Assembly: GCA_937864385.1 (NCBI GenBank)
Contig: CALMJN010000199.1
Coordinates: forward strand, 1-12,104
Direction: 5' to 3'
Source: an uncultured Methanosarcinales archaeon
Lineage (GTDB): Archaea; Halobacteriota; Methanosarcinia; Methanotrichales; Methanotrichaceae
Length of the DNA: 12,104 bases
The notes under the pieces: generated by a model
What the model saw: only the letters and a program-made list of their open reading frames with translations
Told to the model about the DNA's origin: nothing
Database searches by the model: none
Translations under genes and position numbers: made by a program
In this document: positions 1 to 3,385 of the stretch, in pieces
Layout of the letters: each line of letters opens with the position of its first letter
Numbering within the stretch: position 1 is the stretch's first letter

Positions 1-225
1 GGAAGAGACCTGAATCAGGTTATCATGGATATTTATAGCCTCTTCAAACCACTCCAGCTTGTCAGAATCGCCCTCAGCCACGATCTTAACTCTGCCGTCA
101 TCGAGATTCTCCACTACTCCCTTAAGCCCCAGCATTGTGGCAAAATCGACGACCCTCGCTCTGTAACCTGTCTTCTGCACGCTGCCAGAGACATAAGCTA
201 CAAGCCTTTTCATACTTTTCATCAT
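1..225 (-). CDS. acyP: Acylphosphatase, partial (3' end lies beyond the window edge)
   Basis: A small acylphosphatase, which hydrolyses carboxyl-phosphate bonds such as acetyl-phosphate-like or acyl-phosphate metabolites in the cytoplasm. Translating the minus strand from 225 gives 75 residues running off the window; the family is about 90 residues, so roughly the last 15-20 are missing. The fold signature is visible: a first strand ending LVAYVSGSVQ, then KTGYRARV with the phosphate-binding Arg, then GLKGVVENLDDGRVKIVAEG with the catalytic Asn. The usual GRVQGVGFR is written as GSVQKTGYR, so the loop is divergent but the key Arg and Asn are kept. Three in-frame ATGs (225, 222, 213) could start it; none has a clear Shine-Dalgarno, and 213 (MKRLVAYVSG) fits the family best. 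It lies 87 bases downstream of the polymerase on the same strand and may be cotranscribed. Confidence 0.85.
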   Translation of the reverse strand, partial: MMKSMKRLVAYVSGSVQKTGYRARVVDFATMLGLKGVVENLDDGRVKIVAEGDSDKLEWFEEAINIHDNLIQVSS

Positions 226-312
226 TGCCAGCTCTTCATATTTGGCTTTATCGCCGCTCTTATCCCATATTCCTATCCATCAGACATAGCTCGTCTGGAA
301 AAGCTCATGTCT

Positions 313-2250
313 TTATTCCGCCAGGCTCTTCATGATCCTGACCTCCGCCTTCACCGGCACAGGATGGAGAAGCTCTGAGCCTATCCGCTCCATGATCTCC
401 TTCAGCTTGACCGCATACTCCTCTGCTCTCTCCTCCGGGACCTCCAGCAGGATCTCGTCATGTACGGAGTTGATGATCCTGGCCTCCTGGCTGGAGATCT
501 TATCATAGACCTCAGCCATCACCAGCTTGATCAGGTCCGCCCCCGTCCCCTGGCAGGGCGTATTGTACATCTGAAACTTCGATGCCCTGATTCCCGCTCC
601 GAAGCGCGGCCAGATCCGCCTTCTTCCCATGATGGTGGTGGTGGCCGTCAGAGGCAGGGCGAAGAATCCCTGAATGCAGTTGTGGAAATAATGCTGCACT
701 GTAAAGCTCATCTCCGATAGCTGCCGCTCCTGCCACTCTCTCACACCCTGGTAGCAGCTCAAAAAATTCTCCCTGGCCTGCTCTGCCTCGTCTGAAGAGA
801 TGAAAATCCCGTAGTCTGAGAGAATACGGCTCTGCAGGGATCTGGCCGAGCCGCCATAGATGAGCAGGAAGTTCATGGTCTTGGCCGCCTTTCTCTGGGC
901 CTGCGTCACCTGCTCGATCGGAACTCCCGATATCCGGGAGGCGGTGAGCCGGTGCAGGTCGACCCCGTTTTTGAAAGCCTCAAGCATCACTCTGTCGCCC
1001 GATAGCCGGGCCATAATTCGCAGCTCAATTGTAGAGAAGTCTGCCTTGACGAACTTCTTTCCCTCTGCCGGAGTAAAAAGCCTCCTTATGGCAGATGCAT
1101 CCTCGCCGGTGCTGGGAATCTGATGGGCGTTGGGATTTCTGGAGCTGATCCTCCCGGTAGAGGACTGAATCTGAAAGAAATGGGGATGAACCCGGCCGTC
1201 CACCGGCGAGACCTTCTCCAGCCAGCTGCAGAGAAAAGTGAGCTGGTGGCAGACGCGCCTGTAGCGCAGCAGCGCTTCTGCGAAGGCGCAGCCCGCCGCT
1301 GCCAGGCCTTTCAATATCTCTGCCTTGGTGCTGCTCACAGGATAGCCCCGCCTTCTCAGAAAGGCCATGACATCCTCGGTCCGATCGGGATTGAGATAGC
1401 AGCACAGCCTCTTGCCATCATGAGAGACTGTGACAAAGCCCTTCCTCCTCGCCTCCTCCTGCATGGCAGAGACCAGATTGCAGATCTCATACTCCTCCCG
1501 GCAAACCATGCCCCTCGCTTGATCGCATTCCAGATGAATTCCCGACCCTTGCATCTCCGCCAGGGAAGCGGCCACCTGAAACTCCAGGTCGGCGATCTTC
1601 TCCAGCCCGTTTCTGGCCAGAAGCTCCGCCAGGATATTGTGCAGGGGCAGCAGAACCGAGGCCCGCTTTAGAGCCAGGCCATCGCCATTCCGGTCGCCCT
1701 CTTCTGCGCTATCTTCTTCTGCGTTATCTTCTTCAGCGCTGTCTACCCCTCCTCCGCCATCACCTCCGCCATCTCCTTCGCCGCCTTCCCCATCAAGAAT
1801 GATGCCCAGATGCCTCTCCGCCAGAGAGGCCAGGCTGTGATCGGGTACATCCCTCCTCCAGGGATGGCAAGTAGATCCTGATGGCCTGAGATAGTAGTAT
1901 CCCGACCAGCAGATCTGCGATGCCAGCATCAGGTCAAAGACATTGCAGGCATTGATCTTCCTGCCTGCTGAGTCTCTAATCAATGAAAGGGCTGGCCTGG
2001 CGCCATAGATTACCTTCCTGATGCTTCTCTGCTCCAGAAGGGCGGCCAGCAGCAGGATCATTTCCCCGGCGCCATCCGTTCCATGCTCTCTGCCATCAGA
2101 GATGTAGACTGACTTATCGGGAAGTGCAAGGCATACAAGCTTGATTGCCGGCCTAAAAGAATCCTGGTCGGCTGGCTGAAGCGCCAGGCCGCAAATGCCA
2201 TATTTCTTCGCCTTTTCTAAGCCGAATTTCCACTCTTTTAGGGAATGCAT
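313..2250 (-). CDS. Family A (PolI-type) DNA polymerase with degenerate 3'-5' exonuclease domain
   Basis: A template-directed DNA polymerase of family A. Residue numbers here count from a possible TTG start at 2301 (662 residues). I prefer the ATG at 2250 (residue 18, 645 residues) because AGGAAGG lies 9 bases before it and the extra 17 residues look like nothing. Motif A is KADFSTIELRIMARLSGD (Asp421, Glu426). Motif B is RKAAKTMNFLLIYGG (Arg470, Lys474, Phe478, Tyr482). Motif C is NSVHDEILLEV (His614, Asp615). The thumb/palm entry SSTGRISSRNPNAHQIP is at 380-396. Residues 30-170 align in layout with a 3'-5' exonuclease domain (VFDLMLASQI, HSLASLAERHLGI), but the DxE and NAKFD motifs are gone. 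A Gly/Asp/Glu-rich insert fills 171-208. There is no 5' nuclease domain. It is last or next to last in the phosphatase/NAD kinase run. Phe478 predicts normal discrimination against dideoxynucleotides. Such enzymes are unusual in archaea, so transfer from bacteria or a virus is likely. Confidence 0.95.
   Translation of the reverse strand: MHSLKEWKFGLEKAKKYGICGLALQPADQDSFRPAIKLVCLALPDKSVYISDGREHGTDGAGEMILLLAALLEQRSIRKVIYGARPALSLIRDSAGRKINACNVFDLMLASQICWSGYYYLRPSGSTCHPWRRDVPDHSLASLAERHLGIILDGEGGEGDGGGDGGGGVDSAEEDNAEEDSAEEGDRNGDGLALKRASVLLPLHNILAELLARNGLEKIADLEFQVAASLAEMQGSGIHLECDQARGMVCREEYEICNLVSAMQEEARRKGFVTVSHDGKRLCCYLNPDRTEDVMAFLRRRGYPVSSTKAEILKGLAAAGCAFAEALLRYRRVCHQLTFLCSWLEKVSPVDGRVHPHFFQIQSSTGRISSRNPNAHQIPSTGEDASAIRRLFTPAEGKKFVKADFSTIELRIMARLSGDRVMLEAFKNGVDLHRLTASRISGVPIEQVTQAQRKAAKTMNFLLIYGGSARSLQSRILSDYGIFISSDEAEQARENFLSCYQGVREWQERQLSEMSFTVQHYFHNCIQGFFALPLTATTTIMGRRRIWPRFGAGIRASKFQMYNTPCQGTGADLIKLVMAEVYDKISSQEARIINSVHDEILLEVPEERAEEYAVKLKEIMERIGSELLHPVPVKAEVRIMKSLAE
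1678..1791 (-). repeat. Low-complexity Gly/Asp/Glu-rich linker with pentapeptide repeat inside the polymerase gene
   Basis: This stretch encodes a Gly/Asp/Glu-rich tract (GEGGEGDGGGDGGGGVD) and then three tandem copies of a pentapeptide of the form (S/N)AEE(D/G). At the DNA level the latter is a 15-base unit repeated about three times at 1696-1740 with few changes. It sits exactly between the degenerate exonuclease region and the polymerase core, so it is read as a flexible acidic linker grown by slippage. Confidence 0.8.
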
Positions 2251-2314
2251 ACCCGTATCCCTTCCTGCCCATCTGTTTTGGCTGGCGAGCCCGTGGCCCA
2301 ATAGTCACGGTCGT

Positions 2315-2539
2315 CTAAAATATCTCGACCTTCCGCCCCTTGCCCGGCAGCAAGCCAGCCCCTCCAGCAGCCCCACTATATGGGCCATGTGGGGCCATAT
2401 GGGTGATGTTGTCCGCCGAGCCCATGCTCAGAAAGTCGATCAGAGCATAGAGCACAACCGCGCTGCGTATGGATTTGGATATGACAAAGAAGAGCAAGAC
2501 CGATATCTCCGGAGCGATGCTGGCCAGGCAGCCCATCAC
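2315..2539 (-). CDS. Possible small hydrophobic protein, unknown
   Basis: A 74-residue ORF (GTG at 2539 or ATG at 2536) starting 12-15 bases after the NAD kinase stop and ending before the polymerase. I do not recognise it. Residues about 8-37 are hydrophobic (ISVLLFFVIS, SAVVLYALIDFLS) and could form one membrane segment. The C-terminal half is Gly/Pro-rich and ends in a basic KGRKVEIF. In favour of it being real: same strand and spacing as an operon member, G/C-biased third codon positions like its neighbours, and a G-rich run just before the start. Against it: only a weak Shine-Dalgarno, and no family signature. It may be chance coding in a spacer or a decayed gene. Confidence 0.35.
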   Translation of the reverse strand: MMGCLASIAPEISVLLFFVISKSIRSAVVLYALIDFLSMGSADNITHMAPHGPYSGAAGGAGLLPGKGRKVEIF

Positions 2540-2551
2540 CCCGGTCCTGCT

Positions 2552-3385
2552 TCAGGTCAGCTTGTTCTTGACCTTGGCATAGAATCCATCCTTTTCCACC
2601 TTGACGAACCTGGCCGGCTTCTTGGCCTTGCTGATCACCACTTTATCATGAGCGGATATGGTATGGGAGGTCTGCCCGTCCACCACCACCAGGGCCTCTT
2701 TTTCCGGCAGCTTCAGCCGCACCTCAATGACGCTGTCTCCCGGTATCACCCAGGGCCGGGAGGAGAGCTTGAAGGGAGCCATGGGCACCAGAACTATGGC
2801 GTCCACCCGGGGATCGACTATGGGCCCTCCCGCGGACATGGCATAGGCGGTAGAGCCGGTGGATGTGGCCACGATCACCCCGTCCGCCCGGAAGTCCTCC
2901 ATCAGCGCCCCGTCCACTATGATCTCAAATTCGACCATCTTGGCCGGGCTGGCGGTGATAATGGCTATCTCATTGGTGGCCCGGGGCAAACATACGCCGT
3001 TAAGCAGCAGCTTGAGCCGGGAGCGCTCGTCCACCACAAAGCCGGACAAGAGCTTCTTCAGAGTGGCTATGGCATCCTTGGGCTCCACGTCCACTAAAAA
3101 GCCCAGTGTGCCCATGTTTATGCCCAGTATGGGAAGGGGATCGGCCATCTTGTGAATGGTGCGCAGGATAGTCCCATCTCCACCTACCGAGACTATGAAA
3201 TCAACCTTTGCCTTCTCCATCTCCGCCACGCTGCTTCCCTCCCGGCCCAGCTGAAAAGCGATGTCCTCATCCACCATGACCTGTACCTCTTTGCCCTCGC
3301 ACTCGATCTGATAGATAAGCATCCCTACCAGCTGTACTGACTCAGGCTGATGTCTGGATACGAAACCGATCTTAATCCAGGCCAC
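2552..3385 (-). CDS. nadK: NAD(+)/NADH kinase
   Basis: Phosphorylates NAD (and possibly NADH) at the 2' position of the adenosine ribose to make NADP(H), in the cytoplasm. Visible family motifs are GGDGT at 68-72 (catalytic Asp70), NMGTLGFL at 90-97, TNE at 137-139, DGVIVATSTGSTAYAMSAGG at 168-187 (ATS replaces the common ATP) and VDGQ at 235-238. The length of 277 residues is typical. The gene overlaps the 3' end of the upstream phosphatase gene. The start is uncertain. The GTG at 3385 shares its first G with a perfect AGGAGG (3390-3385). An in-frame ATT at 3376-3374 lies 8 bases after that site and would give a protein starting (M)KIGFVSR, the usual N-terminus of the family. Pairing with the phosphatase points to joint control of the NADP pool. 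Confidence 0.95.
   Translation of the reverse strand: MAWIKIGFVSRHQPESVQLVGMLIYQIECEGKEVQVMVDEDIAFQLGREGSSVAEMEKAKVDFIVSVGGDGTILRTIHKMADPLPILGINMGTLGFLVDVEPKDAIATLKKLLSGFVVDERSRLKLLLNGVCLPRATNEIAIITASPAKMVEFEIIVDGALMEDFRADGVIVATSTGSTAYAMSAGGPIVDPRVDAIVLVPMAPFKLSSRPWVIPGDSVIEVRLKLPEKEALVVVDGQTSHTISAHDKVVISKAKKPARFVKVEKDGFYAKVKNKLT

Follow-up and report, generated by a model that had tools for sequence, protein, structure and literature searches.

A family A DNA polymerase of Methanotrichaceae and the association of its relatives with CRISPR adaptation genes

DNA polymerase I of E. coli is needed for both naive and primed CRISPR adaptation and is proposed to act as a gap filler (PMC4678826). 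Integration by Cas1-Cas2 produces gaps that a polymerase must fill (PMC4678826, PMC9048733). Polymerases encoded beside adaptation genes have also been reported. The CAPP enzymes, like the polymerases of clades I and II described below, adjoin Cas1, Cas2 and type III loci, and a role in adaptation is proposed for them (PMC8211822); unlike a family A enzyme, however, they belong to the Prim-Pol superfamily, prime DNA and have an unrelated fold. UAS-4 and UAS-15 are described as Cas adaptation modules to which DNA polymerases are linked (PMC10910872, 2023), again like clades I and II, and they may or may not include the Methanotrichaceae group. Because this paper mentions adaptation-linked DNA polymerases, we regard the enzymes reported here as a variant, rather than a new kind, of such a polymerase. 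Among literature titles and abstracts we found no description of a CRISPR-linked family A enzyme from methanogens, which does not imply absence from print. The best NCBIfam match of our enzyme is to the bifunctional 3'-5' exonuclease/DNA polymerases of cyanobacterial plasmids (PRK14975), at 333.1 bits; it stays below the cut-off of 640 for that family, whose exonuclease active site it has lost.

The window locus and its polymerase

The window, the whole stretch of 12,104 nucleotides analysed here, is an entire contig of a Methanotrichaceae assembly (2.26 Mb, 489 contigs, 93.4% complete). Its relevant features are as follows.

1..258, minus strand: acylphosphatase-type gene fragment, cut by the contig end (homology to G021 and G014:C45)
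313..2301, minus strand: polA, clade I family A DNA polymerase, 662 aa (ORF, Pfam, model)
316..1689, minus strand: polymerase domain, residues 205-662 (Pfam, alignment, model)
454..462, minus strand: motif C, His-Asp-Glu 614-616 (E. coli H881, D882, E883; alignment)
856..894, minus strand: motif B, R470 to Y482 (E. coli R754, K758, F762, Y766; alignment)
1039..1041, minus strand: motif A aspartate D421 (E. coli D705; alignment)
1690..1788, minus strand: Gly/Glu/Asp-rich linker, residues 172-204, low confidence (AlphaFold2 model)
1792..2259, minus strand: exonuclease-like domain at the N-terminus (about residues 15-170) that has lost its catalytic residues (alignment, model)
2304..2543, no strand assigned: flanking sequence with 84% identity to that beside a polA relic in the CRISPR adaptation locus G014:C45 (alignment)
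2552..3385, minus strand: NAD kinase (nadK), start of a conserved block with an IMP-type phosphatase and an SSF transporter (Pfam, homology)

The contig is archaeal and belongs to Methanothrix. It carries genes for DUF2117, DUF2098 and an ADP-dependent sugar kinase (Pfam), and its nadK is 90% identical to that of a Methanothrix relative; together these rule out bacterial contamination. The polA reading frame opens with TTG, and the end at 2250 given by the first-pass annotation corresponds to an in-frame ATG at residue 18, an alternative start. That annotation saw a family A polymerase with intact motifs A, B and C in an archaeal chromosome, and this holds: the protein matches DNA_pol_A (PF00476) at 264.8 bits against a cut-off of 34.3 (E=1.6e-78), the single such match in the whole assembly, and its neighbours are archaeal. 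A prophage, which the annotation had thought not obvious, is not visible within the window.

In the alignment, 13 polymerase residues are present (E. coli R668, D705, E710, H734, R754, K758, F762, Y766, N845, Q849, H881, D882 and E883), at positions that we take to be the catalytic ones and whose E. coli letters were checked in the alignment; R682 and R841 are not conserved. The 3'-5' exonuclease domain gives only a weak Pfam match (20.9 bits, below the cut-off of 23.6), and at exonuclease positions 355, 357, 420, 424, 497 and 501 the window reads A, Q, G, A, L and R. The window protein has no Pfam match to a 5' nuclease domain, and so departs from the three-domain bacterial Pol I, nor to the Prim-Pol catalytic domain that would mark a CAPP enzyme. 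The AlphaFold2 model (pLDDT 85.4, pTM 0.85) resembles Klenow-type polymerases across nearly its full length in a structure search. Among the best 50 PDB matches listed, with TM 0.63-0.76 by query length, the top ones are the Plasmodium apicoplast enzyme, followed lower down by Aquifex, Bst, Klenow and mycobacterial Pol I; viral family A polymerases likewise match. The enzyme thus has the family A fold and polymerase residues in common with the Klenow part of E. coli Pol I, and differs from Pol I in the undetected 5' nuclease domain, the lost exonuclease residues and in not being a general bacterial housekeeping gene. With neither nuclease in evidence, the primer removal suggested earlier for this gene is unlikely.

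Relatives, distribution and active sites

PF00476 was found by profile search in 17 of 60 relatives and in 25 of 392 genomes of the phylum, and a search with the window protein gave matches in 20 of 50 family genomes. This is not the pattern of a broad, vertically inherited archaeal clade, and several kinds of locus lie behind it. In a midpoint-rooted tree of 50 proteins, the window enzyme and nine others form clade I (support 100/100). Its sister (100/99), at 44-46% identity, is clade Ib, made up of three loci from archaea and two contigs that bear the labels Chloroflexi and Leptolinea (L219, L223), where either a shared element or wrong binning may be involved. Clade II, about 30% identical to clade I, joins I/Ib at 93/98. 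Outside I/Ib/II are the polymerases of cyanobacterial plasmids, of Clostridiales, of f7 and others, and those of G015, G229 and the phages sit on long branches of uncertain placement.

Clade Ib polymerases are associated with integrative elements: a DUF3854 protein is encoded nearby in L046, L048 and L061 only (ORF cluster 18, with Pfam support on two), and an integrase in L048 (Pfam) and L061 (ORF clustering). No Cas4-Cas1 of ORF cluster 2 lies near them, and one of these polymerases is 3 kb from an unrelated array. The nearest bacterial plasmid matches are PRK14975-type proteins, tree neighbours outside I/Ib/II. Six of their plasmid neighbourhoods, from 127 matched records, hold replication, transfer and recombination genes and, in gene tables that are incomplete, no annotated cas gene; we therefore dropped a CRISPR link for these bacterial relatives. 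The acquisition from a bacterium or virus proposed in the first-pass annotation stands as far as kinship to mobile-element and bacterial plasmid polymerases goes; the tree, being midpoint-rooted, shows this kinship rather than the direction of transfer. A phage origin was rejected, as all phage tblastn matches stay below both 60% identity and 80% query coverage (the best among 40 listed has 37.9% over 42%), and IMG/VR gave no confirmed relative.

Each of the 10 clade I rows of the alignment has all 13 polymerase residues, and in clade II position 762 is Tyr and position 883 is Ser (E. coli numbering throughout; the residue table omits three phages, G229 and G015). At the exonuclease site, D355, D424, Y497 and D501 are kept by no clade I row, and Glu at 357 by one. 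In clade II, D355, E357 and D501 are missing from every row; Y497 is present in all of these rows and N420 or D424 in some. By alignment, both CRISPR-linked clades are therefore without a 3'-5' exonuclease site. The exonuclease residues are lost in five f7 rows as well. In contrast to clade I, clade Ib keeps them, two members having Glu at 424. Outside clades I, II and f7, D355, E357, Y497 and D501 are kept in 23 of 25 rows, the exceptions being Msarc_G261b and Sinorhizobium, and several of the 25 have Glu at 424. Over six clade I pairs, dN/dS is 0.10-0.19 in the polymerase domain and 0.21-0.39 in the N-terminal part (the value for one clade II pair was left out because of saturation). The clade I polymerase domain is under purifying selection, which is compatible with any function.

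Linkage to CRISPR adaptation genes

We fetched 38 loci (L044-L081), clustered the ORFs that surround the polymerase in them and in the window, and identified the shared polymerase neighbours as Cas4-Cas1 fusions and Cas2. Arrays near the polymerases use a 36-bp repeat such as GTTTCAATTGGGCCACGTCTTTTCAGACATGGATAG. An array or Cas4-Cas1 gene stands beside 7 of 10 intact clade I and all 6 intact clade II genes, so that linkage holds for the relatives as a group. In clade I the array is less than 2 kb away (449-1923 bp; G001, G013, G014, G019, G020, G021, G025). The other three intact genes are those of G010, whose 3.4-kb contig has a single good copy of the repeat (32/36), of the window, and of G004. 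The last genome (99% complete, two contigs) has no copy of the repeat pattern and no Cas4-Cas1 fusion; one decayed repeat copy lies near its polA (27/36, reached in 0 of 60 shuffles). The order cas4-cas1, cas2, array, followed by polA in the opposite direction, recurs in G001, G011, G014, G019 and G021 (the G011 polA is cut by the contig and the G014 Cas4-Cas1 is a fragment), and in G020 and G025 C319 the array lies 5' of polA. These counts leave out the clade I pieces that are broken, relics or cut by the contig (G025 C197, G012 C78, G014 C45, G025 C235, G011 C49) and a broken clade II copy in G424; most of the pieces left out are likewise near arrays or Cas4-Cas1.

The six intact clade II genes are 81-1344 bp from a Cas4-Cas1 gene. 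Five are head-to-head with it at 81-304 bp (G002, G013, G020, G251 and G425, the last with a contig-cut cas4-cas1), and in G035 the distance is 1.3 kb with an array between. In a tree of 27 Cas4-Cas1 proteins, five clade II-linked fusions form one clade (100/99; 0 of 500 shuffles as low) whose branching is that of their polymerases, whereas the six clade I-linked fusions are scattered (4 changes, 28 of 500 shuffles as low). Clade II is thus inherited together with its Cas4-Cas1, and clade I, to which the window gene belongs, is more loosely associated, as an accessory. No polA was found near 16 of the 27 fusions, some of which are on short contigs.

Counts across genomes were also compared. 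Cas1 lies within 6 kb of 11 of 17 clade I/II genes (16 intact and the contig-cut G011 C54) against an assumed chance of 3.9%, a comparison that ignores relatedness. The repeat pattern is present in 22 of 50 family genomes and its reversed control in none. It occurs in 15 of 17 family genomes with a clade I/II polA versus 7 of 33 without (p 7e-6), and within the genus in 11 of 13 versus 3 of 13 (p 0.002), counts that include single repeat copies and one broken polA and that kinship and incompleteness confound. For comparison, nadK is present in 24 of 26 genus genomes, and G004 is the only one in which, read by eye, it is on the same contig as Cas1, at a distance of about 1 Mb. Closeness to an array is partly non-specific, since arrays with other repeats lie 3-5 kb from three other-clade polymerases (L061, L063, L069). 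Other-clade polymerases were kept out of the linkage counts, and none is represented in the Cas4-Cas1 or Cas2 ORF clusters.

Type III-B genes are found at some of these loci: Cas10/Cmr2 and Cmr3 at L059 and Cmr6 at L051. L045 encodes a Csx1/CARF protein, and PADLOC gave no match for four proteins of L055. The gene for a SAVED-domain protein (L045:2135-2683, L081:2061-2597, L189:4192-4737, L181:5962-6498) lies ahead of cas4-cas1 in three loci, and in G010 it forms a head-to-head pair with polA. In four species a 132-aa protein with no Pfam match and, by eye, a hydrophobic N-terminus lies between array and polA (L045:7999-8397; homologs L050, L055, L059).

The window gene itself is not seen beside such genes. 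We found no array, cas gene or repeat in the window, whose contig ends at base 1; the best candidate for a remnant of the 36-bp repeat reaches 21/36, matched by 49 of 60 shuffles. A search of the whole assembly gave no copy of the repeat pattern, and the one Cas1 of this genome is a non-fusion protein on a contig (C231) of only 3.1 kb. Arrays are often lost in fragmented assemblies, and for both these reasons the missing repeat and array are weak evidence. The flanks of polA do resemble a CRISPR locus. The counterpart of 1-258 adjoins cas4-cas1 in G021, and it is this counterpart that has the Pfam acylphosphatase match. Both 1-258 and 2304-2543 are 84% identical to two sites 4.6 kb apart on contig C45 of the sister species G014, around and between which are Cas4-Cas1, Cas2, single repeats and two polA relics. 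On that contig (L177:7552-12935) the relics flank an intact Cas4-Cas1, and one keeps only both gene ends.

On the other side, homology of the nadK region reaches no further than window 2546-2556, where the nadK stop codon lies, in 8 of 8 compared loci, among which G018 is uninformative as its contig ends there. The first-pass annotation had placed polA in an archaeal gene run with nadK. This arrangement is not shared: nadK is present in 23 of 25 other genus genomes and in none is it near a family A polymerase match, the two being on one contig only in G004, 173 kb apart. Since the flanks match G014:C45 and the nadK homology stops, the polA segment looks like part of a CRISPR locus that was brought next to nadK by a rearrangement or an assembly error. 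An assembly chimera joined at about 2543-2552, which would be compatible with any functional reading, seems to us rather unlikely. It would fit the end of CRISPR-locus homology at 2543 just where nadK homology begins, the division of the assembly into 489 contigs, and the G018 and G022 contigs that end 4 and 375 bases from nadK; a real rearrangement would look the same, however, because the sequence beyond nadK differs among relatives (window 2552, G018:C198, G022:C118), as at a plastic site. No tRNA was found at the junction or anywhere else in the window. The window gene looks like an orphan whose module was lost, moved or not assembled.

A putative role in adaptation and its alternatives

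CRISPR adaptation, which the partly supported first-pass annotation had not considered, is on these comparisons the best-supported task for the clade of the window polymerase. With moderate confidence, we propose that clades I and II are polymerases of a Methanotrichaceae group, related to those of plasmids and integrative elements, that may have been recruited to adaptation modules of Cas4-Cas1 fusion, Cas2 and 36-bp repeat arrays, with type III-B effector genes at some loci. A prespacer integrated by Cas1-Cas2 would leave the strands of the first repeat as gaps, which the polymerase probably fills; alternatively, it could make the second strand of the prespacer. Because the polymerase is without a 3'-5' exonuclease, the 3' ends needed by Cas1 would stay undegraded. 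A linked family A enzyme would make the gap-filling question in adaptation testable in vitro and connect the need for Pol I in E. coli with an archaeal example, and the linkage would explain part of the patchy occurrence of bacterial-type polymerases in methanogens. A broader idea is put forward tentatively: two plasmid- or element-type lineages may have become dedicated, proofreading-free polymerases for integration repair in archaeal Cas4-Cas1 adaptation modules, perhaps independently, the exonuclease-dead f7 lineage may serve end joining beside Ku/LigD-type genes, and loss of proofreading may mark the passage from replicon copying to short gap filling.

Counting against a role in adaptation, clade I partners scatter on the Cas4-Cas1 tree, 16 of the 27 fusions are without a polA found close by, the place of the array relative to polA varies, and the window genome and G004 keep polA without the repeat family or the fusion. 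Such retention would be expected of a chromosomal polymerase in general repair or accessory to replication, found near CRISPR genes because both share plastic, defence-rich regions. Such a polymerase would also account for the scatter of clade I partners on the Cas4-Cas1 tree, and purifying selection fits it as it fits any function. We consider it unlikely, given the recurring orientation and spacing with head-to-head pairs at 81-304 bp, the single co-inherited Cas4-Cas1 clade for clade II, and a distribution as patchy as 20 of 50 family genomes. Quite improbable is a replication polymerase left near CRISPR loci as a passenger of decayed integrative elements, to which the DUF3854 and integrase genes around sister clade Ib, the broken clade I copies (G012 C78, G025 C197, G014 C45) and an integrase-cluster ORF at one of them (L047, G012 C78) would be suited, but against which stand the absence of a DUF3854 gene from intact clade I loci, the loss of the exonuclease site while the polymerase domain is under purifying selection, and the co-inheritance of clade II with Cas4-Cas1.

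Two other kinds of family A polymerase were observed among the fetched loci. At L067:9407-14176, a 1589-aa ORF has a family A polymerase as its C-terminal part. At L068:9132-15355, a family A polymerase has Ile at 762 and lacks the exonuclease residues; Ku, an ATP-dependent ligase and a LigD phosphoesterase/Prim-Pol protein are encoded 1-7 kb away (Pfam, for L068 alone), and gene clusters 7-9 of this locus are shared by L071, L072 and L073. The L068-type enzyme is a possible end-joining polymerase in another archaeal family.
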